A DNA stretch of 64,000 bases, taken from contig NZ_AP024714.1 in the NCBI RefSeq assembly GCF_033126985.1, forward strand, positions 2,372,990 to 2,436,989. The letters are read 5' to 3'. Numbering within the stretch: the stretch's first letter is position 1; every line of letters starts with the position of its first letter. The position numbers were made by a program, and so were the translations under genes. Under the pieces are notes generated by a model. It made no database searches. It was not told the origin of the DNA and saw nothing but the letters and a program-made list of their open reading frames with translations. Below are positions 2,668 to 35,530 of the stretch, in pieces. Source of the stretch: Methylomarinovum caldicuralii (GTDB taxonomy: Bacteria > Pseudomonadota > Gammaproteobacteria > Methylococcales > Methylothermaceae).

Positions 2668-2747
2668 GCCGGGTGACCGCGGGCGATTGCTCACCCGCGG
2701 TTCCCACAGATCCGGACGTGCCCGATTAAGGCATCCGGCTCCTCGGA

Positions 2748-4654: not shown

Positions 4655-4734
4655 GCCGGGTGACCGCGGGCGATTGCTCACCCGCGGTTCCCACAGATCC
4701 GGACGTGCCCGATTAAGGCATCCGGCTCCTCGGA

Positions 4735-7461: not shown

Positions 7462-7973
7462 CTTCTCCTCAATTCGCCCTCTCTTGGTTCCAATTAGAAT
7501 CCCACATCCGTGGGGCGACATCTATCCTGACAGAGGGGGCCTGCCTGAGCCGTTCGTTTTGTGTCCGGTCCCAGTCGTTGGCCTGTTCACAGGCCTGACG
7601 CCATTGCCGGATCTGCTCCGGGTAAAGGCCCCGCCCCCGGCACCAGGCCGACAACTCGGCCTCGTTCAGTGCCGCTGTCTCGACCACGGCAGCGAACTTG
7701 TCTGCCGCTGTCCAACCGGCCGGTGTCTGATCACCGTCTGGCAACAGCCGGCCCTCGGCACGCGCAGCCTTGCGCCAGTTGTACAAGGTCGCCTCCGAGA
7801 TCCCTTCCTCCTCGGCAATCTCCCGGATACTTCGGTTGTTCGGCGGCAGCATCTTCTTCAGCACCGCCTCTTTGCGCTCAGCGGAATAACGCATCTTCTC
7901 CTCAATTCGCCCTCTCTTGGTTCCAATTAGAATCCCACATCCGTGGGGCGACATCTATCCTGACAGAGGGGGC
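7106..7973. repeat. 433-bp direct repeat of the IS3 left end and orfA 5' part
   Basis: Positions 7106-7540 reappear at 7539-7973 with an offset of 433 bases and no difference that I could find. Each unit contains the IS end (minus-strand reading GTCAGGATAGATGTCGCCCC) and the first two thirds of orfA. The joint lies where the IS end GGGGGC meets GCCTGCCTGAG of orfA, with a few shared bases, as expected for a microhomology or replication-slippage event or for an IS inserted into a copy of itself followed by loss. Confidence 0.85.
7541..7894 (-). pseudogene. Truncated duplicate of IS3 orfA
   Basis: This is the second copy of the 5' part of orfA (same MRYSAERKEAV start at 7894). It breaks off after the codons for NERLRQA, where the sequence runs into the terminal inverted repeat of the neighbouring IS copy. 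The coiled-coil C terminus is missing, so the product would be a DNA-binding fragment only. Confidence 0.8.
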
Positions 7974-20488: not shown

Positions 20489-21094
20489 ATGACCGTCCCC
20501 GTCTTCGACACCCTCAAGCTCGCCCGCCGCCTGCGCGAGGCCGGTCTGCCCTCCGAGCAGGCCGAGGCCATCGCCGAGGCGGAAGCCGAAGCCCTGGGCG
20601 AATTCGTCGTCTACAACCTGGCCACCAAAGGCGACATCGCCGAGATCAAAACCGAGATCGCCGATCTGCGCGGAGACGTCGCCGAACTGCACGGCGAGCT
20701 GAGCGAGACCCGCGCCGAACTCAAAACCGACATCACCCAGGTCAGAGAGGAAACGGCCGCCCTGCGCAGCGGACTGAAAACCGACATCGCCCAGGTCAGA
20801 GAGGAAACGGCCGCCCTGCGCACCGAACTGAAAACCGACATCGCCAACCTCGACAACAGGATCGAACAGGTCCGCAGCGAGCTAAAAACCGACATCGCCG
20901 GGGTGAAGGGGAAAATCGCCGAAGTGAGGGGGGAGATTGCCGAGCTGCGCGGCGAAATCAGCCGTTTCGAGGTCATCCTCGCCCGCATGGACCGCAAATT
21001 CACCATCTACTTCGCCGTCATCCTGTTCGCGATCATCTTCCTCAACCAGGACGCCCTCGAATTCCTCGCCCGCCTACTGGGCCTGGTGCGCTGA
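20489..21094 (+). CDS. Coiled-coil membrane protein, DUF1640/CCDC90-like
   Basis: A 201-residue protein. Residues 1-40 are a helical head rich in Ala and Glu; residues 45-165 form a long coiled coil; residues about 170-190 are a single membrane helix (FTIYFAVILFAIIFLNQD) near the C terminus. The coiled coil contains a recent tandem duplication of 18 residues (VREETAALRSGLKTDIAQ then VREETAALRTELKTDIAN), with near-identical DNA offset by 54 bases at 20741 and 20795. The layout matches the DUF1640 family, tail-anchored coiled-coil proteins of unknown role. It lies just before the pilus promoter region. Confidence 0.72.
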   Translation: MTVPVFDTLKLARRLREAGLPSEQAEAIAEAEAEALGEFVVYNLATKGDIAEIKTEIADLRGDVAELHGELSETRAELKTDITQVREETAALRSGLKTDIAQVREETAALRTELKTDIANLDNRIEQVRSELKTDIAGVKGKIAEVRGEIAELRGEISRFEVILARMDRKFTIYFAVILFAIIFLNQDALEFLARLLGLVR

Positions 21095-21204: not shown

Positions 21205-21220
21205 TGGCACTCTTTCTGCT
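21205..21220 (+). promoter_or_regulatory. Sigma-54 (RpoN) type promoter of the pilus locus
   Basis: TGGCAC at 21205-21210 and CTGCT at 21216-21220 place GG and GC exactly ten bases apart, the invariant -24/-12 spacing of sigma-54 promoters. Major type IV pilin genes are commonly driven from such promoters by a PilR-type activator. Transcription should begin near 21231, giving a leader of about 160 bases. No sigma-70 alternative stands out nearby. Confidence 0.7.
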
Positions 21221-21390
21221 TAGTAATAGCCGCATGTCCGGGCAGGGAAGCGACCAGGAACGGCCAAGGCCCGGCAGCCCCAGGGAAGACCGCCAGGAAG
21301 GCGAAGGGCAAAAAAGCGGCCGCCACGGGCGGCACCCCGAAGCGGCCGTAATTTTCGTCAACGCTTATTGTTATTGTAGGAGAAAATCCA

Positions 21391-22272
21391 ATGATGAACC
21401 TGAAACCGAAGACAATCAAGACACGCAAGCGCCAGGCAGGTTTGACCCTGCTGGAACTGACCGTGGTCCTGCTGGTCCTCATCGGCCTGTCGGGGCTGAT
21501 CCTGCCGTATGCCCAAGGGTATCTGCAGCGGACGCACGACTCGACGGGGAACGACAACCTTTGGGAGTTGAACAATGCGATCAACTTGTTCCAGGCCAAA
21601 TATCTGGAATACCCGGAGGATTTCCATGCCCTGGTCGAGAGCGGTGGAGCCATCTATGACGACCTGATGAATACCGACCTGGTTGCTGCGGCAACCATGG
21701 GGCCGACCCAGCGCATGTCGCTGTCGATGGCCGGCATCAACCGGGTCTGGCTGATGAAGGATGGAGCGAGCAATGAGAGCGCCACCTTTGACGCCATCGA
21801 CGTCACCACGGAGATCAGGACGGGGATGGCTACCGGTCTCAACCGGACTCTGGCAGTGGTCACCGCCACGTCAGCATATCCGACCAAGGGCCAACACCTG
21901 GCCTTCGCCTTCTACAACAGTACCGCTCCAGCGATCGTTGCCAATTTCGACCACGACGGCACGCTGGATGGCACCGATGCCTGCTACGACTACGTCGTCT
22001 TCGGCGTCGGGCCGGAAAGCGAAATGGTGAATACGGTCATGTCGGATGCACCGCTGCACTTCGCCTCCACCGGCGGCATGGGGCCGGAAAACAAGTACAA
22101 CCGCTTCGTGGCGGTGTTCCGCGTGGACAAGAGCAATACGGCCCCTTGCTCCGAAAACACCGAACCGGCCAAGCTGGTCGGCTCGGCGATGCTGATGATG
22201 CCCCCACACCTGTTTGGCCTGGCACACACCCAGAGCCATACCTATGAAAACATCACCGACAGGAGCAACTGA
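21391..22272 (+). CDS. Prepilin-like protein 1 (candidate major pilin, 293 aa)
   Basis: A type IV prepilin-like protein. A basic 17-residue leader ends in KRQAG, the cleavage site for a prepilin peptidase; the mature protein would begin LTLLELTVVLLVLIGLSGL, with Glu at position 5 and the long hydrophobic helix used for assembly. The globular domain is large (about 240 residues) with three cysteines. It is the first gene after the sigma-54 promoter, has a TAGGAGAAAA leader, and is followed by a terminator-like hairpin, all of which suit the most abundant subunit. The size is above that of ordinary pilins (140-180) and recalls MSHA-like or large pseudopilins. Confidence 0.85.
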   Translation: MMNLKPKTIKTRKRQAGLTLLELTVVLLVLIGLSGLILPYAQGYLQRTHDSTGNDNLWELNNAINLFQAKYLEYPEDFHALVESGGAIYDDLMNTDLVAAATMGPTQRMSLSMAGINRVWLMKDGASNESATFDAIDVTTEIRTGMATGLNRTLAVVTATSAYPTKGQHLAFAFYNSTAPAIVANFDHDGTLDGTDACYDYVVFGVGPESEMVNTVMSDAPLHFASTGGMGPENKYNRFVAVFRVDKSNTAPCSENTEPAKLVGSAMLMMPPHLFGLAHTQSHTYENITDRSN

Positions 22273-22296
22273 TCGCGTTCTTGTCTGACCTGACGG

Positions 22297-22320
22297 GCGG
22301 GCGCTTCGGCGCCCGCCTTT
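22297..22320 (+). terminator. Intrinsic terminator/attenuator after prepilin 1
   Basis: GCGGGCGC, the loop TTCG and GCGCCCGC form an eight-base perfect stem (22297-22316), followed by CTTTCTG. It stands 24 bases after the stop of prepilin 1 and before prepilin 2. The short T run suggests partial termination, so the first gene could be made in excess over the machine genes downstream. Confidence 0.65.
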
Positions 22321-22340
22321 CTGCCGCTCAGAAACCGACC

Positions 22341-23102
22341 ATGACCCCCCCCACACCCCAGCCCGGCTTCACCCTCCTGGAACTGACCGTGGTGCTGCTG
22401 ATTCTGGTGGCGCTCGCGGGGGTGGTGATTCCCTTCACCCAGGGGACGGTCGATCAGGCCGCCTGCCAGGCCACCGACGCGACGCTGGCGGCGGTGAAGG
22501 AGGCGATCATGGGATCGGGCGCGGGGCCGGGGTATTACAGCGATATGGGGAACCGCCTTCCCTATTACCGAGATGGAAGTGGTAACGCGGATTGCCACGA
22601 CGACACCGCCGCCGGCGGCGATCCGATTTACCACTTGCATTTCCTGTTCAACGTCTCTGCGACCAACAGCACACCGAAGAAATCCGTCTGCCCCAAATCC
22701 CTGCAGAGTTTCCGTCCCAACCTGGCCCTCGGCTGGCGCGGGCCGTATTTGCAGAACGGCGGGGGAAAGCTGGCCGATCCGGCCAAGTTGGACAGCAGTT
22801 TTTCCGATACGACCCATCATGTGGCTTTCGACCACAAGTCAAGCACGTTTCAAAACGACTTCCATGTCTTAGACCATTACCGCTGGCACAATCCCATCGT
22901 GCTCCAGGTGCCCACCAGCGGCACCTGCAGCGGCTACCCGGATCCTTCCTGGTGCGCCCGTCTGGTGTCCGCCGGTCCCGACGGCGCGCTTTCCACGACG
23001 CTGGCCAACGTCTCGGCCACCAATCGCGGCGACGACCGCGTGCTGTTCCTCCGTATTCCCGACCCTTACCCCCAAGGCAACCTGCCATGCGCACGCAAGT
23101 GA
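22341..23102 (+). CDS. Prepilin-like protein 2 (253 aa)
   Basis: A second prepilin-like protein. The leader is only nine residues (MTPPTPQPG) and the mature part begins FTLLELTVVLLILVALAGV with Glu at position 5. The globular part has several cysteines (for example DQAACQATD and SGTCSGYPDPSWCARLV) that could form disulfides. The ATG at 22341 is preferred over an upstream one because it gives the short leader typical of the class and lies just after the terminator hairpin. Its 3' end overlaps prepilin 3 by 16 bases, so they are translationally linked. Confidence 0.83.
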   Translation: MTPPTPQPGFTLLELTVVLLILVALAGVVIPFTQGTVDQAACQATDATLAAVKEAIMGSGAGPGYYSDMGNRLPYYRDGSGNADCHDDTAAGGDPIYHLHFLFNVSATNSTPKKSVCPKSLQSFRPNLALGWRGPYLQNGGGKLADPAKLDSSFSDTTHHVAFDHKSSTFQNDFHVLDHYRWHNPIVLQVPTSGTCSGYPDPSWCARLVSAGPDGALSTTLANVSATNRGDDRVLFLRIPDPYPQGNLPCARK

Positions 23103-24034
23103 CGTTCACCCGCCAAACCGGCCTGACCCTGCTGGAGCTGGTGGTCAGCCTGCTGGTGATGACGATTCTGACCTCGGTGGCGATCACCTCGGTGAGCGGG
23201 ATTCAGGAGCAGGCGCGGTATGAGAAGACGGTGCGGTTGCTGGAGGAATTTCGCAAGGCGATTGTAGGAGATGATGACTGGAGCAAGGGTATCCGGGCCT
23301 ATGCCTTCGACATGGGGACTCTGCCGCCGAATCTTAGGGCACTCATAGTTCCCCAAAGCCCTGCATGGCGTATTGTCACGGTCAATGCGGGAACAGACTC
23401 CCAATTCTACATGGGTAGAGGATGGCGCGGCCCCTATCTGTACGCATCGTCATCGCCGGATGATCCCGATGCCTTGCGCGACAGTTGGGGAGGCGTCACC
23501 AATCCAACCTATGACAACGATCAATATTACGGCTGGGTAGTAAGCCCCTTGTCGCCCACCACATCGATGCGTATAGAAAGCTATGGCAGTGACAGCCAGG
23601 ATGGGCCAAGTAACAATTGCGGCCAGGATACGAGCTACCAAGATGACTGCCTGATCGATATAACCGAAAACACTTGGAAGGTCTCCCTACCCCAAATCAC
23701 GCTGCATTTTCTGGATACCACCACTACGACCGCTTTGACGAATGTAACGACCTGCCTCCAGGTTTACTACCGCTCCCCCGCGGTCGCTTTGGGAGTCGTC
23801 TCTGTCACCAGTGATCCAACGCCCCTTGCAGTAACGTCGAAACCCCAATACCGCTCACCGCCATTCAACTTCTCAGCCGGACCCAGCGTCCCCGCAGGTC
23901 AGAACTACATCGCCCTATTCCGATGTAACTCCCTGGGAGTCATCACGAACCTGAACAATATCTACCCGAGCGGGCGCCGCCCTTTGGCGGTTGACATGCG
24001 CCCCGGCAGCACCATTCCCGTCATCGACTGGTAA
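23087..24034 (+). CDS. Prepilin-like protein 3 (315 aa)
   Basis: A third prepilin-like protein. The 12-residue leader ends RQTG and the mature chain starts LTLLELVVSLLVMTILTSVA, again with Glu at position 5. The start ATG lies inside the end of prepilin 2. The large globular part (about 270 residues) is Ser/Thr/Tyr rich with paired cysteines (NNCGQDTSYQDDC). Its base composition from about 23270 on is less GC rich than its neighbours. It is possibly a tip or minor subunit with a binding function; that role is inference from size and position. Confidence 0.83.
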   Translation: MRTQVTFTRQTGLTLLELVVSLLVMTILTSVAITSVSGIQEQARYEKTVRLLEEFRKAIVGDDDWSKGIRAYAFDMGTLPPNLRALIVPQSPAWRIVTVNAGTDSQFYMGRGWRGPYLYASSSPDDPDALRDSWGGVTNPTYDNDQYYGWVVSPLSPTTSMRIESYGSDSQDGPSNNCGQDTSYQDDCLIDITENTWKVSLPQITLHFLDTTTTTALTNVTTCLQVYYRSPAVALGVVSVTSDPTPLAVTSKPQYRSPPFNFSAGPSVPAGQNYIALFRCNSLGVITNLNNIYPSGRRPLAVDMRPGSTIPVIDW

Positions 24035-24060
24035 CACAACAAAATAAAAAACGCCCCCGA

Positions 24061-25485
24061 ATGCCCCTCAAGGACAAGATAACCCCCCTCCTCGCCAAGC
24101 TCCCCCAGTCCAACCGCCCGCGCCACACCCTCCTCTACGTCACCCGGGAGGCCACCTTCCGGGCGGAGGCGGACGGGCGCGGGCGGCTCATGGGCGATGT
24201 GGAGACGGTGGAAAAGACCTGCGACGGGGTGGACTATCTGCCGGAGGCGGTGGAGTATGTGCTCACCCAGGGACCGCGGCCGGCGCGGCGGGTGTGGATT
24301 CTTTACGACCGGCTGGAAACCCACAGCCTGGCGCTGCCGGAGGCGCAGACCACCGGCATCGGCGCGGCGGCCCTGACCCAGGCGCTGATGTTCGAGCTGG
24401 AGGCGGTCACGGGCATGTCCATCGTCAATCGCCAGATCGGCTACACCCTCACCGCCTCCGACGACGAGATGCGCAACTACTGGGTCAGCCTGCTGTCGCA
24501 GCGGGTCTTCGACCGTCTCTCCCACCTGGTGCGCCAGAACCGCGCCCGGCTGGCGGCGGTGCTGCATCCGGGCGGGCTGCCGGCGCCGCTGACGGAGGGC
24601 TTCGAGCTGCCCTGGCTGCGGATCGAACACTGGCCCGAGGTGGTCATCGCCCTGTGCGCCCGCCACCGCGACGAGCCGCCGGAGGTGAACGTCATCCCCA
24701 CCGAGGGGATGCACGACGGCGGGGAGGGGGAAATCGCCGAGTGGCTGGAGGAGCACGGGGACGTGACCCGACGGGAGGTGCTCTCCTGCGGCCGCACCCT
24801 GCTGCTGGGGGAGGACGAACAGCCCACCTACCGCCTCGACCACCTGGAGGACCGGCAACGGTGGCTGGCACGCTGGGCCGCGGCCCTGGCGGGGCGCGAC
24901 TTGCACGTGCCGCTGCTGCAGGACGCCCACGCCATCAACCCCGACTATCTCTACATGGGGCTGTCGGGGGCGGCGGCGCTGCTGGTGGTGGCGGCGCACT
25001 TCGGCTGGCACACCTGGCAGAAATACGACTACCACCAGAAGACCGCCGAGCTGAAGCAGATCGAACAGCAGATCAAGACCCTGCGCGACGGCATCAAGGC
25101 CCGCCGCGACAAACTCGACGCCCTCAAAGGGGAAGTGTCCGCCCTCCACGAAGGTTTCAAGGACTTCCCCACCCTGCTGGAGCGGTTGCGCAGCCGTCCA
25201 GCCCGGCTGCTGGCGGCGCTGGCGCGGGCGCGGCCCGCCGGGGTGGTGCTGGACGGCATCGGCCGCGACGGCGACATCTGGAAGATCCACGGGGTGGCGG
25301 TCACCTTCAGCGCCCCCAACCGTTACGCCACCGCCCTGGAGGCCCCGGTGGCGACCCTGGGCTTCGAGGTGCTGCCGCCGGTCAAGCAGGACCGCGACCT
25401 GTTCGTCCACGGCGGCCCGTGGGAATTCGACATCAACCTCAAGGACCTGGGATTGGCGGAGGTGGCCCGTGGCGCTGACGGCTGA
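24061..25485 (+). CDS. PilM/PilN-like fused assembly protein (MshI/GspL-like)
   Basis: A 474-residue protein joining a cytoplasmic domain (residues 1-290), one membrane helix (about 296-314, GLSGAAALLVVAAHFGW) and a periplasmic coiled coil plus small alpha/beta domain. This is the combined topology of PilM plus PilN, or of GspL. It should couple the assembly ATPase in the cytoplasm to the periplasmic platform. It begins 26 bases after prepilin 3 and its end overlaps the following PilO-like gene by 17 bases. The primary sequence is diverged and the call rests on topology and gene order. Confidence 0.72.
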   Translation: MPLKDKITPLLAKLPQSNRPRHTLLYVTREATFRAEADGRGRLMGDVETVEKTCDGVDYLPEAVEYVLTQGPRPARRVWILYDRLETHSLALPEAQTTGIGAAALTQALMFELEAVTGMSIVNRQIGYTLTASDDEMRNYWVSLLSQRVFDRLSHLVRQNRARLAAVLHPGGLPAPLTEGFELPWLRIEHWPEVVIALCARHRDEPPEVNVIPTEGMHDGGEGEIAEWLEEHGDVTRREVLSCGRTLLLGEDEQPTYRLDHLEDRQRWLARWAAALAGRDLHVPLLQDAHAINPDYLYMGLSGAAALLVVAAHFGWHTWQKYDYHQKTAELKQIEQQIKTLRDGIKARRDKLDALKGEVSALHEGFKDFPTLLERLRSRPARLLAALARARPAGVVLDGIGRDGDIWKIHGVAVTFSAPNRYATALEAPVATLGFEVLPPVKQDRDLFVHGGPWEFDINLKDLGLAEVARGADG

Positions 25486-26086
25486 ACAACGAGAACGCTA
25501 TCTCAAGCGCATCCTCCCGGCCCTGGCCATCGGGGTGGTCTATTTCACCTTCGTCAAGGGCTTCGTGGAAAAGAACACCGAAAAGGCCGAGGACGAATGG
25601 CGTCAGCTGGCCCAGAAGGGTATCAGCGCCGCGGCGATTCCCTCCTACCAGCGCCAGATCGAAGCCCTCGACCGCCAACTCGCCGAACTGGAAACGAAAA
25701 AGGCCGAACTGGACGCAAAGCTGGCCGGGGAACTGGGCGGCCTGGCCAGCGGCCGCGACACCAACCGCCTGATCGCCGAGCTGACGGCGATCCTGAGCCG
25801 CCACCACCTGCAGGTGACCGACGAGGGCCGCGACGACGAGATTTTCGAACAGGGCAGCCGCACGGTGCGGGAAATCCGCGACAAGCTGCAGCAGCAGAAG
25901 CTCGACGACAAGCTCCATTTCCAGGCCTGGCGGGTGGAATTTCTGGGCCGCTACGGCGACGTGTACGCCGCCCTGCGGGAAATGGCCGACAACGCGGTGC
26001 CGCTGATCCCCCTGGACCTGACCATGAAACCGCCGGCGGATGACAGCGACCCGCGCATGGCCTGGACCTTGACCCTCTGGATCTGA
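25469..26086 (+). CDS. PilO/GspM-like platform protein
   Basis: A 205-residue bitopic protein: a short cytoplasmic tail, one membrane helix (about residues 15-32, ILPALAIGVVYFTFVKGF), a coiled coil (about 50-95) and a C-terminal ferredoxin-like part. This matches PilO and GspM, which dimerise with PilN/GspL in the periplasm. Translation starts at GTG within the end of the preceding gene. Three bases separate it from the ATPase gene. Confidence 0.72.
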   Translation: MALTAEQRERYLKRILPALAIGVVYFTFVKGFVEKNTEKAEDEWRQLAQKGISAAAIPSYQRQIEALDRQLAELETKKAELDAKLAGELGGLASGRDTNRLIAELTAILSRHHLQVTDEGRDDEIFEQGSRTVREIRDKLQQQKLDDKLHFQAWRVEFLGRYGDVYAALREMADNAVPLIPLDLTMKPPADDSDPRMAWTLTLWI

Positions 26087-26089
26087 ACC

Positions 26090-27892
26090 ATGGCGACACC
26101 CTCGGAACGACTGCGCAACGACGACCAACGGCAAAACCCGCGCCAGCCGGCCCTGCCGGCTTGGCACGCAGCGCTGTATCCGCCCGGCGCCGACAGCGTG
26201 GAGGGGCGGATCGTCGATCTGTCCGACCGGGGCGCCGGGCTGGCCGTGGCCGAAGCCCGGCTCGACGGCCTCCACGAGGGGGCGCAAGTGACCCTGACCC
26301 TGGAGGCGGGCGAGCGCCGCTTCACCCGCCGGGCCGAGATCCGCTGGCTGCGGATTCAGGACGACGGCGGCCTGCGTTTGGGGCTGCGCTTCATCGATCC
26401 GGTCTGTTTCGATCCGGCCGACCACGTGCTCGACATGGATGAAGTGCGCATCCATCCCGAATGCGTCCTCAAGATCCCCGCCACTTTGGCGATGCGCAGG
26501 CGGGTGCTGCCCTTCGTGGAGCTGGACGGAGTGCTGCACGTGGCCTGCACCGACCCGGGACACCGCTCCACCCTGCGCATCGTCGAGCGCATGGCCAAGA
26601 CCCGGGTGTGCGCCTGGAAGGCGGAGAAGGAGCCGCTGGAGCGGGCCATCCGCCGGGTGTGCGGCGACGGCCGCGACCGCCTGAGCGCGCTTTCCGCCCC
26701 GTCGCAAAACGCGCTCCAGGGTCTGGACGCCGACGCCACCGACGTCACCGACGAGATTCTGTTCGCCGCCTATCTCAAGCAGGCCTCCGATGTCCACATC
26801 GACCCGCGCCGCGAGGGGGTGGTGGTGCGCTTCCGCGTGGACGGCCGCCTGGAGACGCACGCGATGCTGCCGGCCAACGCCCACTCCGAGATCATCGGCC
26901 GCCTCAAGGTGCTGGCGGGGATGGACATCGCCGAAAAGCGCGCCCCCCAGGACGGCAGCTTCTCCAAACAGTTCGTCAGCGGCGGGCGGGAGATCGACGT
27001 CCGCGTCGCCACCCTGCCCACCAGGTACGGCGAGCGCATGACGCTGCGTCTGCTGGCGCTGCAGACGGGCAGCCTCACCCTCGACAAACTGGGCCTGAGC
27101 GATTTCCACCGCCAGACTGTGGAAACCTTCCTGCGCCGCAACCAGGGCATGATGCTGCTCACCGGCCCCACCGGCAGCGGCAAGACCACCACCCTGTACG
27201 CCGCCATCCGCCGCCTGCTGGCCGAGCGCGACCTCAACATCATCACCGTGGAGGACCCGGTGGAATACGAGATCGACGGCGTGGCCCAGTCGGAGGTGGA
27301 CTCGGCCGACAAGGTGAGCTTCGCCAAGGCGCTGCGGAGTATTTTGCGCCACGACCCGGACGTGGTGATGATCGGCGAGATCCGCGACCACGAAACCGCC
27401 GACGTCGCCATCAAGGCCGCCCTCACCGGCCACCTGGTGCTCTCCACCCTGCACACCAATTCGGCCCCGGCGACCCTGACCCGCCTCATCGACATGGGAC
27501 TGGAGCCTTACCTGGTGGCCGCCAGCGTGCGCCTGGCCATCGCCCAGCGTCTGGTGCGGCGCCTGTGCCGCCACTGTCGCATCCCCCGCCCCCTGACCCG
27601 GCGCGAGGCGGAAGTCTTCCAGCGCCCGGAGCTGGCGGGCCAAGAGGTGTACGAGGGCGCCGGCTGCATCTACTGCGGCGGGCGCGGCTACAATGGCCGG
27701 CTGGCGGTGTACGAGATGCTGCCCATCGACGCCGAATGGGCCCGGGGCATCGCCGAGGGGGCCGGGGAGGCGGAGGTGATTCAGTGGATGCAGGAGGCCG
27801 GCGTTCCCTTCCTGGTGGACGACGTGCTCGACAAGGTGCTGGCCGGGAAGACCTCGGTGAGCGAGGCGATGGGGATCGTGCTGTCGTGGTGA
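26090..27892 (+). CDS. PilZ-GspE fusion: c-di-GMP-binding type IV pilus/T2SS assembly ATPase
   Basis: A 600-residue ATPase with an unusual N terminus. Residues 10-115 form a PilZ domain with both c-di-GMP motifs intact: RxxxR (R14-QNP-R18) and DxSxxG (D43, S45, G48). A GspE N-terminal-like part follows (about 120-205), then the ATPase: Walker A GPTGSGKTTT (about 358-367), Asp box and Walker B DVVMIGEIRD, His box LTGHLVLSTLHTN, and a CxxC...CxxC zinc motif near residues 493-528. It should power pilus extension or secretion, gated by c-di-GMP. Well-studied MshE senses c-di-GMP through an MshEN domain instead. Overlap and spacing place it in the assembly operon. Confidence 0.9.
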   Translation: MATPSERLRNDDQRQNPRQPALPAWHAALYPPGADSVEGRIVDLSDRGAGLAVAEARLDGLHEGAQVTLTLEAGERRFTRRAEIRWLRIQDDGGLRLGLRFIDPVCFDPADHVLDMDEVRIHPECVLKIPATLAMRRRVLPFVELDGVLHVACTDPGHRSTLRIVERMAKTRVCAWKAEKEPLERAIRRVCGDGRDRLSALSAPSQNALQGLDADATDVTDEILFAAYLKQASDVHIDPRREGVVVRFRVDGRLETHAMLPANAHSEIIGRLKVLAGMDIAEKRAPQDGSFSKQFVSGGREIDVRVATLPTRYGERMTLRLLALQTGSLTLDKLGLSDFHRQTVETFLRRNQGMMLLTGPTGSGKTTTLYAAIRRLLAERDLNIITVEDPVEYEIDGVAQSEVDSADKVSFAKALRSILRHDPDVVMIGEIRDHETADVAIKAALTGHLVLSTLHTNSAPATLTRLIDMGLEPYLVAASVRLAIAQRLVRRLCRHCRIPRPLTRREAEVFQRPELAGQEVYEGAGCIYCGGRGYNGRLAVYEMLPIDAEWARGIAEGAGEAEVIQWMQEAGVPFLVDDVLDKVLAGKTSVSEAMGIVLSW

Positions 27893-27897
27893 GCTGA

Positions 27898-29109
27898 ATG
27901 CCGGAATACCGCTACATCGCCCGCGACGGCGCCGGCCGCCAGCAGAGCGGCACGGTGGAGGCCGAATCGCGCGAGGCCGCGGTGCTGCAGTTGCGCGGCC
28001 AGCGCCTGCTGGTGCTGGAGATCGCCGAGATCAAGCGCCGCGACGGCCCCAGATCCTTCAGTCTCAACCCGCTGGAATACCGCGCCATTCGGCCGGTGGA
28101 CGTGGAACGCGACTTCCACCAGCTGGCGGTGATGCTCCGAAGCGGCCTGCCGATCCTGGAGGCGCTGCGTATTGTCGCCGGCAACTCGCGCATCGCCGTG
28201 GCGCGGGTGTGGAACAAGATCGCCGACCGCATCCAGCAGGGCGACAGCCTCACCGAGGCGATGATGGAGCACAAGGTGTTCGACCGCCTCACCCTGGCCC
28301 TGATCCGGGTCGGCGAGGAAACCGGCAACCTCGATTTCGTCCTCGACCACGCCAGCAAGGAACTGGAGCGGATGCGCAACTTCAAGCGCCAGGTGATCTC
28401 GGCGCTGGCCTATCCCCTGTTCGTGATGGTGTTCGCCATCGGCGTGGCCATCTTCATGCTCACCACCGTGGTGCCGGAGATCAAGAAGTTCCTCGCTGTC
28501 CTCGGCCGCAAGCTGCCGCCCATCACCCAGGCGCTGATCGACACCTCCGACTGGCTCGAAACCCACGGCCCCTACATCCTCATCGGCCTGACGGTGTTCA
28601 TCGTCACCATCGTGCTGCTGCGCAAGGTGCCGCTGACGCGCTACTGGCTCGACTGGCTGCTCCTGAAAACCCCCCTTTTCGGCCGCATCGCCCAGCTTGC
28701 CGGGGCGGTGGCCTTCACCCGCGGCCTGGGCACCCTGTTCAAGAGCGGGGTGCGCATCGTCGAGGCCCTGGAAATCACCGAGGCGCTGCTGTCCAACACC
28801 TGGCTGGGACGGCGGGTGGCCGAGGCGCGGCGGCAGGTGCTCCACGGCGAGTCGCTGTCCAAGCCTTTGGGGGAGAAGTTCGGCTTCCCGCCGCTGCTGT
28901 ACAAGATGCTGGTGGTGGGGGAGAACGCCGGCACCCTGGACGACATCCTCGACGAACTGACCGCCTACTTCGAGGACGCCATGGCGCGCCTGATCCGCAC
29001 CATGGCCGCCTTCATGGAACCGGCGGTAACCCTCATCGTCGGCGGCATCGTCGGCTTCGTCTATGCGGCCTTTCTGGTGGCGATGTTCTCCGCCGGAGGC
29101 AAGGGATGA
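27898..29109 (+). CDS. PilC/GspF-like inner-membrane platform protein
   Basis: A 403-residue protein with two T2SSF domains and three membrane helices. It opens MPEYRYIARDGAGRQQSGTV, the conserved start of the family; the first domain has VERDFHQLAVMLRSGLPILE and the second FTRGLGTLFKSGVRIVEALE. It forms the membrane platform against which the ATPase works. Five bases separate it from the ATPase gene and its stop overlaps the next start (ATGA). Confidence 0.92.
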   Translation: MPEYRYIARDGAGRQQSGTVEAESREAAVLQLRGQRLLVLEIAEIKRRDGPRSFSLNPLEYRAIRPVDVERDFHQLAVMLRSGLPILEALRIVAGNSRIAVARVWNKIADRIQQGDSLTEAMMEHKVFDRLTLALIRVGEETGNLDFVLDHASKELERMRNFKRQVISALAYPLFVMVFAIGVAIFMLTTVVPEIKKFLAVLGRKLPPITQALIDTSDWLETHGPYILIGLTVFIVTIVLLRKVPLTRYWLDWLLLKTPLFGRIAQLAGAVAFTRGLGTLFKSGVRIVEALEITEALLSNTWLGRRVAEARRQVLHGESLSKPLGEKFGFPPLLYKMLVVGENAGTLDDILDELTAYFEDAMARLIRTMAAFMEPAVTLIVGGIVGFVYAAFLVAMFSAGGKG

Positions 29110-29630
29110 AGCGGCTGGCGCTGTTGTGGCTGCTCTCCCTGCCGGCGTGGGCGGAAGACGATCTGCTCAAGGTGGGCAAGACCCCGGCGGAGAAGCTGGA
29201 CGAGAAAACGGCAAAGGCCAAGGACAACGTGGACAAGGCGCTGGCGACGCTCAAACGCAAGAAGGCGGCGACCACCGCGGCGCTGTTCGCCCTCGGCGGG
29301 CCGCAACCGGCCGCCCCCCTGCCCGACCCGACGGCGCCGGACGAGACCTTCCAGCAGACTTTCCGCACCCTGCTCCGGGGCCAGAGCCAGGGCGGTGATG
29401 GCACCCTGCCCCCCATGCCCGACATAAAACTGGCCGCCCTGGTGCGCAAACCTCAGATACCGCCGGCGGTGCTGCTGAAGATCGACGGCCAGGTGGTGAT
29501 GGCGGAAAGCGGCGAGGAAATCAGCCTGATCCGGGAGGGTCGCGCCATCCAGGTGCGGGTTCAGGAAATCGGCGAGGACAGCGTCCGCCTTCTGGTCATA
29601 CCCCACAACGAACTGCTCACCCTGCACTGA
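29106..29630 (+). CDS. PilP/GspC/MshK-like periplasmic protein
   Basis: A 174-residue exported protein with a short signal peptide (MKRLALLWLLSLPAWA). Residues 20-110 are a low-complexity Lys/Ala and Pro-rich linker; the C terminus from about 115 (IKLAALVRKPQIPPAVLLKI, DGQVVMAESGEEISL) is a small beta domain of the PilP/GspC homology-region type that docks to the secretin. It lies between the platform and secretin genes, with start/stop overlap to the former, which supports the assignment. Sequence similarity is weak. Confidence 0.65.
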   Translation: MKRLALLWLLSLPAWAEDDLLKVGKTPAEKLDEKTAKAKDNVDKALATLKRKKAATTAALFALGGPQPAAPLPDPTAPDETFQQTFRTLLRGQSQGGDGTLPPMPDIKLAALVRKPQIPPAVLLKIDGQVVMAESGEEISLIREGRAIQVRVQEIGEDSVRLLVIPHNELLTLH

Positions 29631-29633
29631 AAC

Positions 29634-31994
29634 ATGGATCCCAACGACAACAACAAGACACCGATCCGCAGCGGCTGGCTGCTGCTGGCCTTCGCCCTCA
29701 CCCTCGGCGCCGGCGCGCCCGGCCAGGCCCGCCCCCACGCCGACGACCGCATCGCCCGCATCGAATTCCGCAGCGTCACCGTCGGCGACGCCCTGCGCAT
29801 CCTCGCCGACCGCTCCGGCCTCAACGTAGTGGCGTCCCAGAAGGCCGCCCGCATCCCGGTCACCATGTATCTGAAGGACGTGCGGCCCATGGACGTGATC
29901 GAGGCCATGGCCAAGACCTACAACCTCTGGTACCGTCGCGATCCCCGCTCCGGCATCGTGCGGGTCTATACCGTGGACGAGTTCCGCCTCGGCCAGGTGG
30001 ACTACGCCCAGGAACAGACCGAGGTGTTCACCCTCAAGCACGAGATGAACGTGCTCGACGCCGCCACCGCCATCCGCGACCTCTACGGCGACCGGGTGAT
30101 CCTGAACCTGGGATCGGAAAACGACTTTCAGCTCCTCGCCGACCTGGCCCAGCGCTTCCAGCGCTTCAACATCATCGACAGCCAAAGCCGCTTGAGCACC
30201 ACCGGCACCGGCCGCGGCGGGATCGGCGGAGGCTTCGGCGGCCGGGGATTCGGTGGCGGCTTTGGCGGCGGCTTTGGCGGCGGCTTTGGCGGCGGCTTTG
30301 GCGGCGGCTTTGGCGGCTTTGGCGGCTTCGGCCTGCAGGGACTCCAGAGCCAGCAGCGAGAGGCCACCGGGGAGACCGAAGTCAAACCGGAGGAAGTGCG
30401 CAAAGAGATGGCCGGCACCGAAAAGCTCCTCGGCGGGGTGCGCGAGCGGGAAGTGGTGCTGGAAACCACCCGCCGCACCGCCCCCATCTACCTCACCCTG
30501 ATCCGCCGTCAGAACCGGGTGGTGGTGCGCACCCGCGACCAGGACGCCCTGGAACAGATCCGCCGGTTGATCGAAAAGATCGACACCGACATGGCCACCT
30601 TGCTGCTGGAGGTGAAGGTGTTGCAGGTGGATCTGGGGGATGACTACAGCTCGGTGTTCGACTTCGCCTTCGACAAAGGCAGGGTCACGGCGGGAAAGAA
30701 CTCCGAAACCCAGAATTTCACTACCTTTGCGCTGCAGAATCTGGAAGCGGCGACCCAGAACGCCCTGCAGAGCACCGCCATCGCCAACCCGGCCCTGCTG
30801 GCGGCTCTGATCGGCAAGAACTTCAAGGCCCGCCTGGAGCTGCTGGAGAAGGAAGGCCGGGTCACCACCCTGGCCACCCCGATGCTGCTGACCGCCAACC
30901 AGGAGGTCAGCCGCATCTTCATCGGTCAGGAGGAACCCATCGTCACCGGCTACAACGCCCAGTCCGCCACCGTCAGCCAGCCCCAGGGCAACGTCGCCAT
31001 CATCCAGAACCCGCTACTGGTGCCGGAATTCGAGACCCGCAACCTGGGCAAGACCCTGATCCTGACCCCCACCATCAACGCCGACGGCAGCATCAGCCTG
31101 CGGATGATGCTGGAGGATTCGGTCATTTCCGGCCAAAAGCCGGTGGACATCCCCGTGGGCAACCAGCTACAGAGCGGCAACGTGGACATCGTCTCCAACC
31201 GCACCTACAGCGGCAGCATCGTGATCCAGGACGGCCAGGGGGCGGCCATCGGCGGCCTGATCGAGGAAAAGGCCGAAGACCAGGAACGCAAGGTGCCGGT
31301 GCTCGGCGACATCCCCCTGCTGGGACGCCTGTTCCGCGATGAAATCCAGCTCCGCAACCGCACCGAGCTGGTCATCCTGGTCCGCCCCCAAATCATCGAC
31401 ACCCCCAAACAAAGCGGCCGGGTCAGCCGCGCCTGGCTCAGGGAGCAAAGCGCCCACCCGGCCCTGGACCAGCCCAACCGCAGCCTCAACATCTACAAAA
31501 ACCCTTACGGCACCCACCGGGGATACGAGCTTCAAGAACCCTACAAGACCTATCCGGGCCAGGACGCCATGGACCGTTACAACCGCAAGGACGGCTACTG
31601 GAAACGCCAGGCCGCGGAAGCCGAACTGCTGCCGGATTCGAACCAGCAGCTCTACATGCAGCTGACCCGTTACGCCGCCAAGGCCGTACGGGCCGAACAC
31701 CGCACGCTGCCCAACGATCAGAACATCCGGCCGCGGCCCAGACCTCCCGCCAACCCGGTCTATCTGACCCCCAATCTCCAGGCCGTCCCCCTGGCCAGCT
31801 GGGGGCGCGGGGGGTTGACCGTGACCGCCCTGAAACTGATCAATCGCGGCGAAACCCCGGTCACTTTCAACGCCCGCGAGCTTCGGGGCGACTGGCTGGC
31901 GGCCACGGTGGAGAAACCGCGGCTGGAACCCGGTGAAGGCACCTACCTCTATCTGATCTCCGCCGGCGGATTCCGGGAGGCGCTGCAGCGATGA
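29634..31994 (+). CDS. Secretin (MshL/GspD/PilQ-like) with Gly-rich insert and extra C-terminal domain
   Basis: A 786-residue outer-membrane channel subunit. After a signal peptide, N domains begin IEFRSVTVGDALRILADRSG. A glycine-rich stretch of GGFG repeats lies at about residues 192-234, and the secretin core at about 395-590 contains the family motif VPVLGDIPLLGRLFRDE followed by ELVILVRPQIID. Residues 720-783 (VTALKLINRGETPVTFNARE, LRGDWLAATVEKPRLEPGEG) resemble the C-terminal domain of the DUF3438/TIGR03749 proteins of integrating conjugative elements, an addition I do not know from pilus secretins. It should form the gate for the fibre or substrate. Confidence 0.88.
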   Translation: MDPNDNNKTPIRSGWLLLAFALTLGAGAPGQARPHADDRIARIEFRSVTVGDALRILADRSGLNVVASQKAARIPVTMYLKDVRPMDVIEAMAKTYNLWYRRDPRSGIVRVYTVDEFRLGQVDYAQEQTEVFTLKHEMNVLDAATAIRDLYGDRVILNLGSENDFQLLADLAQRFQRFNIIDSQSRLSTTGTGRGGIGGGFGGRGFGGGFGGGFGGGFGGGFGGGFGGFGGFGLQGLQSQQREATGETEVKPEEVRKEMAGTEKLLGGVREREVVLETTRRTAPIYLTLIRRQNRVVVRTRDQDALEQIRRLIEKIDTDMATLLLEVKVLQVDLGDDYSSVFDFAFDKGRVTAGKNSETQNFTTFALQNLEAATQNALQSTAIANPALLAALIGKNFKARLELLEKEGRVTTLATPMLLTANQEVSRIFIGQEEPIVTGYNAQSATVSQPQGNVAIIQNPLLVPEFETRNLGKTLILTPTINADGSISLRMMLEDSVISGQKPVDIPVGNQLQSGNVDIVSNRTYSGSIVIQDGQGAAIGGLIEEKAEDQERKVPVLGDIPLLGRLFRDEIQLRNRTELVILVRPQIIDTPKQSGRVSRAWLREQSAHPALDQPNRSLNIYKNPYGTHRGYELQEPYKTYPGQDAMDRYNRKDGYWKRQAAEAELLPDSNQQLYMQLTRYAAKAVRAEHRTLPNDQNIRPRPRPPANPVYLTPNLQAVPLASWGRGGLTVTALKLINRGETPVTFNARELRGDWLAATVEKPRLEPGEGTYLYLISAGGFREALQR
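30253..30330. repeat. 12-base tandem repeat coding for GGFG units in the secretin
   Basis: The unit GGCGGCTTTGGC is repeated five to six times with almost no variation inside the secretin gene. Perfect short coding repeats of this kind can expand or contract by slippage without shifting the frame, because the unit is a multiple of three. The encoded Gly/Phe-rich loop lies between the N domains and the secretin core. Confidence 0.75.
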
Positions 31995-33034
31995 AACGGC
32001 TGCTGCCGGGACTGTGCCTCTGGATGATGCAGGCCGGCGCCGCCGGGCCGGAGCTGCATATGACGGTGTTGCAGCCGCCGCCGGCGCCCCAAACCGTGAC
32101 CCTGGCGAACGCCGACACCCCGCCACTGCACATGACGGTGCTGACCGAAGCGCCGCCAGGGCCTGTCACCGCCTCCAGGGATTTCCGGTTTCATTACGAT
32201 GTCGGCCTGGGCTACCGGCGCGACCGTCTCGACTGGAACATCGGCGTTCCCGAGGGCCCCGACGTGCTGACCGAGGAGAAATGGCGCGATCTGGACAGTA
32301 TCCAGCTGAGCGGCAGCGCCCATCTCGTCACGCCCCAGAGGATCGCCTTCCAGGCGCGGACAGCCTACGCCTGGGTGGTGGACGGCGATTACCGGCGCAC
32401 GGACTATCTGGAGAACGGCCGCAGCGATCCTTTTTCCGGCACCGCGGCCCGGGCCGATCACGGCCATTTCCTCGATCTGTCGGTGGGCGTCGGTTACCGC
32501 ATCCAGCCCGACGCCTGGAAAGTCAGGCCGTGGCTGGAGCCGTTGGCCGGGTATGCCTACCGGAACCAGACCCTCCAGGCGAACGACTTCCGCCAAACCC
32601 TGGCCACCGCCTTGCTGACGCCGCCGCAAGGCCCGCTGCCCGGCACCGAATACCGCTACCACGCCCGCTGGCATGGGCCCTGGGTCGGGCTGAATCTGGG
32701 GGTGGAAGGCGAACGCTGGCGCCTGTTCGGCCAGGGAGAGTACCACTTCGCCTGGTACCGGGCCGACGGCCGTTTCAAATCCCTGCAAGGCAGCGACCGT
32801 AAGGTCACCTTCGATCAGGACGCCGACGGCCGTGGCGTCGTCGCCCAGGTGGGCGGCAGCTACCGCCTGTGGCGCGCCCTGTCGCTGCAGCTGAGCGCCG
32901 AGTTCCAACACTGGCGGGCCGACCACGGCAAGGACAAAACCCGCATCGGCGGCGGCGACGCCGTGACCGCCCGCCTGAACGAAGCCCGCTGGCGGATGCT
33001 GGGCGGGCGCCTGAGTTTGAGTTTCGATTTTTGA
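31991..33034 (+). CDS. Outer-membrane beta-barrel-like protein linked to the secretin
   Basis: A 347-residue exported protein: signal peptide (MKRLLPGLCLWMMQAGAAG), a Pro-rich segment carrying the hexapeptide LHMTVL twice (about residues 18-23 and 41-46), then a series of amphipathic strands (YDVGLGYRRDRLDWNIGV, HFLDLSVGVGYRI) ending in a C-terminal Phe (LSFDF), the usual outer-membrane barrel end. Spacing of Trp/Tyr and length recall omptin-sized ten-stranded barrels, but I see no clear omptin catalytic set. The start overlaps the secretin stop (ATGA). It may be a partner or anchor of the machine. Confidence 0.6.
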   Translation: MKRLLPGLCLWMMQAGAAGPELHMTVLQPPPAPQTVTLANADTPPLHMTVLTEAPPGPVTASRDFRFHYDVGLGYRRDRLDWNIGVPEGPDVLTEEKWRDLDSIQLSGSAHLVTPQRIAFQARTAYAWVVDGDYRRTDYLENGRSDPFSGTAARADHGHFLDLSVGVGYRIQPDAWKVRPWLEPLAGYAYRNQTLQANDFRQTLATALLTPPQGPLPGTEYRYHARWHGPWVGLNLGVEGERWRLFGQGEYHFAWYRADGRFKSLQGSDRKVTFDQDADGRGVVAQVGGSYRLWRALSLQLSAEFQHWRADHGKDKTRIGGGDAVTARLNEARWRMLGGRLSLSFDF

Positions 33035-33046
33035 GGAAGCGAATCC

Positions 33047-35530
33047 ATGCGACGGCAAATCATCCCGATCCTGATGCTTTGTCTGTTGACGGCCGCCTTT
33101 TCCGTGCGGGCGGACAGCGGGGCGGTCAGCCAACGTCTGCTGCGACTGGAGCAGGCCTGGCGGGAGCACCAGGCCAACGGCGGCCAAACACCGTTCCGCA
33201 GCCCGGTAGCCGATGCACACCTGTGGCGCGGCCGCGTGCTGGTCACTGTAACCGGTGAAGGCCCGGCGGCACGACTGGCGGAACAACTGCGCTCCTTGGG
33301 GATGGACCGGGTTGCCGCCTTCGGCAATGCCGTCTCCGGCTGGATGCCCATCGACAGGCTGCATCTGCTCGACCGTCTGGGCACTGTAAGCCAGGCTCGC
33401 GCCGCTCTGCCCAGGACCCATGCAGCCACTCCACTGTTCGGCGATGGGGGCAACCGGGTCATCAGCCAGGCGGATGCCGCCCTGCGGGCCGTCAACGCCC
33501 GCAAGCGGTACGGGGTGGACGGGCGGAGCATTACCATCGGCGTGTTGTCCGACAGTTTCGATTGTCTGGGACAGGCCGAGGACGACACCGCTGCCGGGGA
33601 GTTGCCCGCCCAAGTCACCGTGCTCAAGGACCTGAGCAACGATCCCGATGAAAACGGAATCACCGAATGCGATGCTCTCAATGGGCAGGACGAAGGCCGG
33701 GCCATGATGCAACTGATCCACGACCTGGCCCCCGGCGCCAGCCTGATGTTCTACACTGCCTTCGGCGGCGAAGCCGACTTTGCCAGCGGCATCGTCGCCC
33801 TGGCCGCCGCCGGAGCCGATGTCATCGTCGACGACGTCGGCTACGCCTCGGAGCCCATGTTCCAGGACGGCATCATCGCCCAGGCGGTGGACCAGGTCAA
33901 AGCCATGGGGGTGGCCTACTTTTCCTCCGCCGGCAACGAGGGGCGGTTGGGCTACGGCGGCGCTTTCAATCCGGGCCGGGCGGGACTGACCGGGGAGACC
34001 GCCCATGATTTTCATCCCGATCCGGCCATCGACGACTTCTATCAGGCCATCGAGATTCCCGAAAATGCGCAGGTCACCATCATCCTGCAGTGGAACCAGC
34101 CGTTCCGCACCGGCGACCGGGGTGGGGCCGTCAGCGACCTGGATCTGATCCTGTTCGACGAGACCTTAAGCCGGGTGGTGGCCAGCAGCGAGGAGGACAA
34201 CCTGGGGCGCGATCCCATCGAAGCACTGGTGTTTGTCAACGACACCGGGGGCACCCGCTTCAATCTTTATATTCCCCACCGCGCCGGGCCGGTGCCGGAA
34301 CGGATTCAGTACGTCATCTGGGGCACGCCGCCCCAATGGCCGGTGGAGCGCGGCCCAATCCCTCGGGGCTGCACCCTGGGGGACGGCAGCGGGGCTATCG
34401 GCGCCGGCCAGCCCCAGGACCCCGAGGCCGAAGCGGTGCGCCTGCTGGAATACGGCGACGGCCCCGGCAACGCCACCATTGTGGGCCACGCCAACGCCGA
34501 CGGCGCCATGGCGGTGGGGGCCATCTCCTACCGGGAGACTCCGTTCTTCGGCATCTGCTCGAGCCTGGGGCGGATCGAACCCTTCTCCTCGGCCGGAGGG
34601 GTGCCGGTGTATTTCGATGCCAATAGCAATCCCCTTGAAAATGCCCCGGTGATCCGGCAGAAGCCGGATCTGGTGGCCGTCGATGAAACCAATACCACTT
34701 TCTTTCCATCCGGGGACAACAGCGACACCGATAACGATGGCCGGCCCAATTTCTTCGGCACCTCGGCCGCCGCTCCCCATGCCGCCGCTGTCGCCGCCCT
34801 CCTCCTTGACTACAACCCCAACCTGAGCGTCGATGAACTGTACCACGCCATGCGGCTGTCGGCCCTGGACCTGGACGATCCGGCCACGGAAGGTTTTGAC
34901 CGCGGCTTCGATTACGGTACCGGCTACGGCCTGCTCGATGCCGCCGGGGCCTTCACCGCCCTGGAGCAGGATGGCCTTTATCTGACCCTGGGGCCGGTAC
35001 CGCTGGAGGCGATGGCCGGGGAGGAACTGCGTTATCTGCTCACGGTGGTCAATTTTTCCCCGACACCGGCCCGCGACGTGGCCATCCGCGGCCAGATCCC
35101 GCCCGCCACCGCCGTCACCGGGCTGGAAGGGTGCCCTCGGGTGGATCTGGCCTTGTCGGCCTGCGTCATCGGCGACCTGGCGCCGGGCGGCCGCCATCAG
35201 CTGGAACTGCGCTTGACCATCACCGACGGCACCGTCGCGGCGGTCGAGCCCCAGTTTGAACTGCTCTCCGGCGGCCTGCCCCTGGCCGACGGCAGCGGCA
35301 GCCTGATCCGGCCCACAACCCGCATCGCCCGCCCACCGGGAGACTTCAACCACGACGGCTGCATCGACCGCAGCGACCGGGCCATTCTGCTGGCGGTGTT
35401 GCGGGGCACCCTGACCGATGCCGATCTGAACGCCGGCTTCGACCTGACCGGCGACGGACGTGTGGACATGGACGACCTGCGGGAACTGGTGCGCCTCTAC
35501 TCCCGGCCGGAAGGGGTATCCTGTAGCTGA
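33047..35530 (+). CDS. Secreted S8/S53-like serine peptidase with dockerin-like C terminus
   Basis: An 827-residue exported protein with a signal peptide (residues 1-22) and a pro-region to about 150. The catalytic domain has Asp169 in IGVLSDSF, Glu216 in GQDEGRAMMQLIHDLAPGAS where subtilisins have His, and Ser573 in FFGTSAAAPHAAAVAAL. This Asp/Glu/Ser set fits the S53-like (sedolisin-like) branch. A DUF11-like beta domain follows (about 640-755). Residues 765-820 are two calcium-loop repeats (DFNHDGCIDRSDRAILLAVL, DLTGDGRVDMDDLRELV) like a dockerin. Thirteen bases after the barrel gene, so it is probably part of the same operon and perhaps a substrate. Confidence 0.85.
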   Translation: MRRQIIPILMLCLLTAAFSVRADSGAVSQRLLRLEQAWREHQANGGQTPFRSPVADAHLWRGRVLVTVTGEGPAARLAEQLRSLGMDRVAAFGNAVSGWMPIDRLHLLDRLGTVSQARAALPRTHAATPLFGDGGNRVISQADAALRAVNARKRYGVDGRSITIGVLSDSFDCLGQAEDDTAAGELPAQVTVLKDLSNDPDENGITECDALNGQDEGRAMMQLIHDLAPGASLMFYTAFGGEADFASGIVALAAAGADVIVDDVGYASEPMFQDGIIAQAVDQVKAMGVAYFSSAGNEGRLGYGGAFNPGRAGLTGETAHDFHPDPAIDDFYQAIEIPENAQVTIILQWNQPFRTGDRGGAVSDLDLILFDETLSRVVASSEEDNLGRDPIEALVFVNDTGGTRFNLYIPHRAGPVPERIQYVIWGTPPQWPVERGPIPRGCTLGDGSGAIGAGQPQDPEAEAVRLLEYGDGPGNATIVGHANADGAMAVGAISYRETPFFGICSSLGRIEPFSSAGGVPVYFDANSNPLENAPVIRQKPDLVAVDETNTTFFPSGDNSDTDNDGRPNFFGTSAAAPHAAAVAALLLDYNPNLSVDELYHAMRLSALDLDDPATEGFDRGFDYGTGYGLLDAAGAFTALEQDGLYLTLGPVPLEAMAGEELRYLLTVVNFSPTPARDVAIRGQIPPATAVTGLEGCPRVDLALSACVIGDLAPGGRHQLELRLTITDGTVAAVEPQFELLSGGLPLADGSGSLIRPTTRIARPPGDFNHDGCIDRSDRAILLAVLRGTLTDADLNAGFDLTGDGRVDMDDLRELVRLYSRPEGVSCS

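Follow-up and report, generated by a model that had tools for sequence, protein, structure and literature searches.

The window analysed here, a stretch of 64,000 nucleotides from the single-contig genome (2.69 Mb) of Methylomarinovum caldicuralii, holds 11 tightly packed open reading frames (ORFs) on the plus strand (21391-35530) that very probably encode a separate type IV filament (T4F) machine, the fourth of this genome and distinct from its type IVa pilus (T4aP), its type II secretion system (T2SS) and its mannose-sensitive haemagglutinin (MSHA) pilus. For the whole we propose, with moderate confidence, a methanotroph T4F machine in which a PilZ domain gates the assembly ATPase, a secretin with a TraK-type domain stands on an outer-membrane barrel of the Pom family, and a peptidase is optional. 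The one-strand operon and its parts had been listed in a preliminary description made from the sequence alone and proved real, including the three large prepilins and the tight junctions between most genes; the parts that it could describe only in general terms, such as an 'extra' secretin domain and a barrel-like protein, can now be assigned to families.

Identity and distribution of the machine

The generic T4F model, as given in the excerpted part of its source, consists of an assembly ATPase, an inner-membrane platform protein and a pilin in one cluster (PMC6668835), and all three are encoded in the operon: T2SSE is matched at 4.6e-118, T2SSF at 1.7e-55, and there are three prepilin N termini, of which the N_methyl matches fall slightly under the Pfam cut-off. 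When compared with NCBIfam equivalog models at their own cut-offs, the operon secretin misses MshL (TIGR02519; 109.4 bits, cut-off 250.2), GspD (160.9 of 351.35 bits) and PilQ (125.6 of 284.35 bits), and the operon ATPase misses GspE (461.6 of 630.25 bits) and PilB (451.2 of 675.65 bits). Separate systems elsewhere in the genome do pass, namely an MSHA-type locus that is MshL-positive (261.3 of 250.2 bits) and whose ATPase satisfies the MshE-type c-di-GMP (cyclic di-GMP) model NF053729 (58.6 of 38 bits), a T2SS (GspE 639.7 of 630.25 bits, GspD 519 of 351.35 bits) and a PilQ (510.7 of 284.35 bits). Because the ATPase of the MSHA locus also fails the PilB and GspE cut-offs, the separation is strongest for the secretin. 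The mandatory MSH genes named in the same excerpt are mshM with mshA, mshE, mshG and mshL (PMC6668835); a second AAA+ ATPase-like gene was not found by Pfam among the 11 genes, a search that included no MshM model and did not extend to MshM in the rest of the genome. The preliminary description had conceded that all features might turn out to be those of a characterised MSHA system, which is not what is seen, given the separate MshL-positive system elsewhere in the genome.

The distribution of the ATPase orthologs and the shared loci make the operon a conserved, lineage-restricted machine. Full-length ATPase orthologs were found in 6 of the 61 near relatives (at 54-83% identity, the window itself excepted) and in 2 of the 369 genomes sampled from the class, and within the order Methylococcales the PilZ-ATPase is present in 38 of 311 genomes, representing 15 of 50 genera. 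Eight of the loci (L numbers below denote loci, G numbers genomes) carry names: two Methylothermaceae, Methyloprofundus, Methylotuvimicrobium buryatense 5G, a Methylococcaceae, Ca. Methylumidiphilus and two that are uninformative. All 11 genes stand in the same order in L031. L033, from the same genus, has 10 of 11, and no peptidase was found within the 10 kb that follow; in M. buryatense the set is complete, with pp3 and pp2 placed after the peptidase, and the core order is kept across many Methylococcales loci. The barrel family was found in five of the 61 near relatives, all five with an ATPase ortholog, and in the sixth ortholog carrier (G044) the contig stops in a truncated secretin. Two copies of the operon appear to be in decay: L139 (G546) has a split ATPase and secretin, and L143 (G592) a split secretin, barrel and peptidase.

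The secretin domain and the outer-membrane barrel

The additional domain of the secretin is a TraK/VirB9-type C-terminal domain, a point on which hidden Markov models (HMMs), an AlphaFold model and comparison with the Protein Data Bank (PDB) agree. DUF3438 matches the whole window secretin with 44.5 of 25 bits and TraK_C remains just under its cut-off (27.8 of 28.5); among aligned long tails DUF3438 is found in 16 of 16 (best 8e-24) and TraK_C in 5 of 16, and an NCBIfam family from conjugative elements matches the secretin at 3.5e-19. The AlphaFold model of the domain has a mean pLDDT (predicted local distance difference test) of 72.7, with ten-residue blocks mostly at 85 or more from residue 91 on and lower at the extreme C terminus. 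Its top PDB matches are F-plasmid TraK (Foldseek 1.2e-5 and 5.1e-4), with structural Z scores of 10.1 and 9.2 over 105 aligned residues and 6.1 for the next row. When a sequence profile of the secretin tail was searched against PDB chains, no meaningful match emerged, and the relation to TraK therefore rests on the Pfam and NCBIfam HMMs together with the fold. In the F system, according to the excerpted part of the source, the C-terminal domain of TraK is packed against segments of TraV within the outer ring, near the outer membrane (PMC8770708). In the literature searched, which included few subscription journals, neither the operon nor any secretin ending in a TraK-type domain was found described.

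The gene that follows encodes a Pom-family barrel (PF17251; 170.6 of 22.4 bits, and 37/37 aligned members match), for which AlphaFold gives 10 strands with high confidence (residues 66-346) preceded by an N-terminal arm of low confidence. Its fold lies close to OmpT (Z 29.7, 274 residues, 2.2 A); the non-omptin barrels OpcA (Z 20.8) and a Dot/Icm-associated porin (Z 19.5) score far lower. An omptin protease activity was considered for the barrel and not retained: the likeness is one of fold, and neither hhalign against E. coli K-12 OmpT (probability 3.4) nor a profile search of PDB sequences gave an OmpT relation.

The lengths of the secretin tails are bimodal (about 195-220 versus 68-98 residues), and long tails go together with the barrel: out of 29 loci 20 have a long tail and a barrel, seven have neither, two (L126, and L139 with its broken operon) have the long tail without a barrel, and none has a barrel alone (naive Fisher p 2.3e-5). 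Not counted in this table are L138 and L148, which have no full gspF, the overly divergent L141 and L177, the broken L143, L040, which shares its contig with L121, and any locus in which the contig stops short of the end of the secretin. Outside the table, domain and barrel are both present in L138, L148, L141 and L177, of which L141 (G434) and L177 (G179) are divergent T4F operons with no PilZ on the ATPase, and L177 belongs to another family outside the order. Order-wide, Pom is found in 21 of 38 ATPase-positive genomes versus 7 of 273 negative ones (p 1e-16, uncorrected for kinship); among these seven, G592, G594 and G597 hold parts of the operon, G434 holds the divergent operon, G471 and G669 have a short barrel fragment and G510 a weak match. 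The Pom family itself is not tied to secretins, since outside the order no recognisable secretin was near Pom in 19 of 20 loci, from 20 of the 28 class-level Pom genomes.

What sets the operon barrels apart is the arm. The peptide x-x-M-x-[VIL]-[FLYIV] occurs 42 times after the signal peptide in 23 operon arms versus 3.6 expected from shuffles, and at least twice in 19/23 operon barrels versus 0/20 stand-alone ones, in which there is one match in 20 arms versus 2.1 expected (these arms are often shorter, for which the shuffles allow). A stricter doubled pattern, applied to the ORFs of the neighbourhoods, gave 20 matches, of which 19 are barrels. On these grounds the barrel may well dock on the C-terminal domain of the secretin; our confidence goes no higher because the independent changes are few. 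That the doubled arm peptide is the means of docking is a somewhat doubtful proposal. We regard docking as a well-supported guess, and the outer-membrane arrangement that it implies as new.

Several observations count against such docking. L126 keeps the domain without the barrel, and no Pom was found in its genome (G584); the gspF tree of the 29 loci requires only four changes of the tail and five of the barrel; the paired contrasts are never opposite in direction, yet significance is out of reach for the independent-pairs test (median p 0.25); domain and barrel gene are adjacent, such that one deletion could remove both; and the arm peptides are degenerate in L141 and L177. Adjacency and the small number of independent changes are also what speaks for a joint loss of mere neighbours by single deletions, with no physical contact between the two. 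This explanation appears unlikely to us, as the pairing recurs in the divergent L141 and L177, as the doubled peptide is exclusive to operon barrels, and as L115 and L116 sit in the gspF tree with the domain-less L119 and others while their barrels group with Methylotuvimicrobium barrels (100/99). The latter pattern is consistent with tail, barrel and peptidase having been exchanged together in a single cassette.

The same evidence bears on the view that the operon is a divergent MSHA or type II system with a passenger outer-membrane protein that sits downstream by chance. It has in its favour that the core parts are those of MSHA and T2SS, that secretin and ATPase have strong sub-threshold matches to GspD, MshL, PilQ, GspE and PilB, and that Pom is often stand-alone, as in the loci outside the order. 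We nevertheless judge it improbable: all relevant equivalog cut-offs are missed while the separate systems of the genome pass, the barrel follows the secretin in 20/22 domain-bearing loci versus 0/7 domain-less ones, and the arm of the operon barrels is absent from stand-alone ones.

Four domain-less loci (L117, L119, L134 and L135) have a small lipoprotein-like gene right after the secretin. As a substitute for the barrel this gene was set aside; it has no Pfam match, and a role as pilotin would be a guess only.

The barrels also differ in a second respect. In stand-alone Poms a QDSDY motif is conserved where strand 3 ends, and most also have an EYH-like motif on strand 7 (alignment A3). The DSD motif is lost in the window barrel, and generally in 7/7 operon barrels with an adjoining peptidase, while it is kept in 14/14 without (p 8.6e-6, uncorrected); it is also lost in two barrels for which the peptidase slot lies off the contig, and at least two separate contrasts underlie the pattern. 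This is suggestive of one protease having replaced another, and, considering the modelled fold close to that of the omptins, Pom may possibly be an unrecognised protease family; no role assigned to members outside Chlamydiae was found in the literature examined. In its most complete and still tentative form, the barrel would thus be described as an omptin fold with an arm of two tandem beta-strand peptides that clasp the TraK/VirB9 domain and so replace a lipoprotein pilotin, and maybe as a former surface protease.

ATPase, peptidase and promoter

The fusion of PilZ to the ATPase, which the preliminary description had pointed out, is borne out by Pfam as PilZ, MshEN and T2SSE in one protein. 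The PilZ match (35 bits, cut-off 22.5) carries both c-di-GMP motifs, RQNPR (RxxxR) and DLSDRG (D/NxSxxG), D43, S45 and G48 are invariant in a six-row alignment, and the MshEN match (residues 114-194) follows directly. The c-di-GMP module of MshEN consists of two 24-residue RLGxx motifs, as the source states in its excerpted part (PMC5013675), and by sequence PilZ occupies the position where MshE-type ATPases carry this module. Given the motifs, and with 24 GGDEF matches in the genome, the PilZ domain of the ATPase is likely to sense c-di-GMP. A pattern for the 24-residue MshEN motifs matched 0 of 36 ATPase ortholog rows (L139 and L140 among these are not true N termini), a result tempered by the strictness of the pattern. 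It counts against sensing by PilZ that the RxxxR pattern was not found in several ATPase rows, e.g. L121, L128 and L133.

The terminal gene encodes a peptidase with a Sec-like start and S8 motifs, in the form of DEGRAMM, where subtilisins carry HGTH, and GTSAAAPH. The dockerin-like end that had been noted earlier is borderline (Dockerin_1, 22.7 bits versus a cut-off of 22.9), and a cohesin partner had no match in this genome (G000) or G016 and two in G008. The peptidase was found in the Methylothermaceae loci (L033 excepted), in the three loci of Methylotuvimicrobium, in L116 and in three loci of genus g11, which is Methyloprofundus-like; it is absent from most complete loci of the machine, and wherever the contig extends to its left neighbour it adjoins the barrel. 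It is, in other words, an optional cassette beside the barrel. The preliminary description had taken the whole set as one machine and had allowed that the last two genes might not be conserved with the core; the single machine stands with its own barrel, which accompanies the ATPase ortholog in relatives, and the reservation does not apply to the barrel but is partly justified for the peptidase.

One could therefore ask whether the operon is rather a T2SS-like secretion system, with the terminal S8 peptidase as its dedicated substrate and the prepilins forming a short pseudopilus, which would agree with the Sec-like start, the constant place of the peptidase next to the barrel and the fact that GspG is the best match for two of the three prepilins. 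The complete loci without the peptidase, L033 among them, make this rather unlikely, as does the extra T2SSE ATPase of the divergent L141 and L177 (assigned by model to the PilT family in L141), which suggests a retractable pilus, and an optional peptidase beside a filament machine remains our reading.

The sigma-54-type promoter proposed before pp1 is more than a chance match, as a near-consensus site scoring at least 13 out of 14.5 recurs in 19 of the 25 orthologous loci, 166-211 bases upstream of pp1; it is absent in L033, L118, L123, L131, L136 and L139. A c-di-GMP riboswitch in the leader was rejected, there being no Rfam match over the gathering score in the window and chance-like hits at E up to 10. 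Methylomonadaceae-type relatives have a leader that forms a conserved structured RNA with 20 pairs, five of them with double changes, and without a match in Rfam; its model (R1) gave a single match, located upstream of the operon, in each of 18 among the 40 sources searched, at E 1e-14 or better, including six sources that were not used to build it. Located between the sigma-54 site and pp1 (e.g. L116:538-653, L127:3963-4076, and 16 other loci), it is a candidate for a new cis-regulatory RNA. For the window itself R1 was rejected, since even at E up to 1 it matched neither the window nor L031, L032 or L033. Immediately upstream of the promoter lies a CCDC90-like coiled-coil gene (PF07798, 3.9e-13; window 20489-21094), and a coiled-coil-like ORF is also found beyond the peptidase in L031 (135-629).

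The features are collected in Table 1. All junctions between ORFs are overlaps or gaps of 3-26 bases, the sole exception being pp1-pp2 (68 bases). The PilN match of pilMN is weak (18.3 bits, Pfam cut-off 22.8), and the pilO-like and pilP-like genes, which have no PilO family match and no family match, respectively (Pfam/NCBIfam), owe their names to gene place and conservation. The operon contains no prepilin peptidase and no retraction ATPase, as described before; one prepilin peptidase is encoded elsewhere in the genome, as are two short, mutually adjacent T2SSE-family ATPases that are PilT/PilU-like by size only.

Table 1. Features of the operon and its upstream region (window coordinates)
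Feature	Position	Strand	Remarks
Sigma-54 type promoter, TGGCAC-N5-CTGCT	21205..21220	+	From sequence; similar position in 19/25 loci
Leader between promoter and pp1, about 170 bases	21221..21390	+	Some conservation in three loci of the same genus; nothing in Rfam above the gathering score
pp1, large prepilin	21391..22272	+	293 aa; G|xTLLEL signal; kept in relatives
pp2, large prepilin	22341..23102	+	253 aa; G|xTLLEL signal; kept in relatives
pp3, large prepilin	23087..24034	+	315 aa; G|xTLLEL signal; kept in relatives
pilMN, PilM/PilN-like assembly protein	24061..25485	+	PilN match under cut-off
pilO-like assembly protein	25469..26086	+	Conserved place; no PilO family match
gspE, assembly ATPase: PilZ, MshEN (C-terminal part), T2SSE	26090..27892	+	
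PilZ domain of gspE	26126..26398	+	Residues 13-103; RxxxR and DxSxxG
gspF, inner-membrane platform protein	27898..29109	+	T2SSF
pilP-like pilotin-linker protein	29106..29630	+	Conserved place; no family match
Secretin with Gly-rich linker	29634..31994	+	786 aa
TraK/VirB9-type C-terminal domain of secretin	31605..31991	+	From residue 658
Pom-family 10-stranded outer-membrane barrel	31991..33034	+	
Barrel arm peptide 1, LHMTVL	32054..32071	+	Barrel residues 22-27
Barrel arm peptide 2, LHMTVL	32126..32143	+	Barrel residues 46-51
S8-family peptidase, DUF11-like and C-terminal dockerin-like region	33047..35530	+	Optional cassette
Dockerin-like region of peptidase	35336..35488	+	Residues 764-814

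Apart from the operon, the window contains a head-to-tail duplication of a 1,987-base unit (99.8% identity, 2668-6641) with matches to a group II intron (RF02005; 4356-4571 and 6343-6558, minus strand), a second one nearby of 435 bases (100% identity, 7106-7973), and a gene resembling dCTP deaminases that includes an intein splicing domain and has a weak HNH match (38846-40819).

Proposed mechanism and comparison with known systems

We propose that the operon would be transcribed from the sigma-54 promoter and that the ATPase would polymerise the three large prepilins on the GspF platform, with c-di-GMP, presumably bound by the PilZ domain that stands in place of the MshEN module and has the motifs for it, licensing assembly. 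The filament would leave through the secretin, which may be held in the outer membrane by its TraK/VirB9-type C-terminal domain (as assigned by HMM and fold) and not by a classical pilotin; this domain would bind the dedicated Pom barrel, most likely via the two short beta-strand peptides on its disordered N-terminal periplasmic arm. The peptidase is perhaps a passenger or a surface processor, and the prepilin peptidase and, if used, retraction ATPases would be supplied from elsewhere in the genome.

Knowledge of how secretins reach and keep their place in the outer membrane comes mostly from lipoprotein pilotins. If the proposal is true, an integral barrel instead of a lipoprotein pilotin would constitute a new mode of secretin anchoring, and it would link the outer-membrane parts of T4F and type IV secretion systems (T4SS). 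The operon also bears on the common Pom family, and its ATPase would represent a natural sensor swap, PilZ for MshEN. As M. buryatense, a genetically workable methanotroph, carries the machine, a compact system for testing is available.

With MSHA the operon shares the core of PilM/N-, PilO- and PilP-like proteins, GspE/GspF and secretin, as well as the apparent c-di-GMP control at the N terminus of the ATPase; it differs in the missed MshL cut-off, in that no MshM was found in the operon, in having PilZ in place of the MshEN 24-residue motifs, and in the TraK-type secretin domain and the barrel. In the PilB-PilZ-FimX system of Xanthomonas a PilZ likewise acts on a pilus assembly ATPase, but there it is a separate protein, non-canonical as reviewed, whereas the operon PilZ is fused and has both c-di-GMP motifs. 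The Pom porins and omptins are similar by family membership and by the OmpT fold match, respectively, whereas the operon barrels bear the N-terminal arm with two peptides and have no OmpT relation at the sequence level. The F-type T4SS core complex (TraK/TraV/TraB) has the same TraK C-terminal domain fold, bound in F, as its source describes in the excerpted part, by short TraV segments; in the operon the domain forms part of a T4F secretin, no equivalent of TraV or TraB was identified, and the barrel is the proposed partner. The Tad system (RcpA/TadD), again as far as the excerpted source goes, also combines a T4SS-like domain with a T4F secretin whose C-terminal end recruits an outer-membrane assembly partner. 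In RcpA, however, the VirB9-like domain is N-terminal and the last four residues bind the lipoprotein pilotin TadD, whereas the operon secretin has a C-terminal TraK-type domain of which the partner would be an integral barrel.

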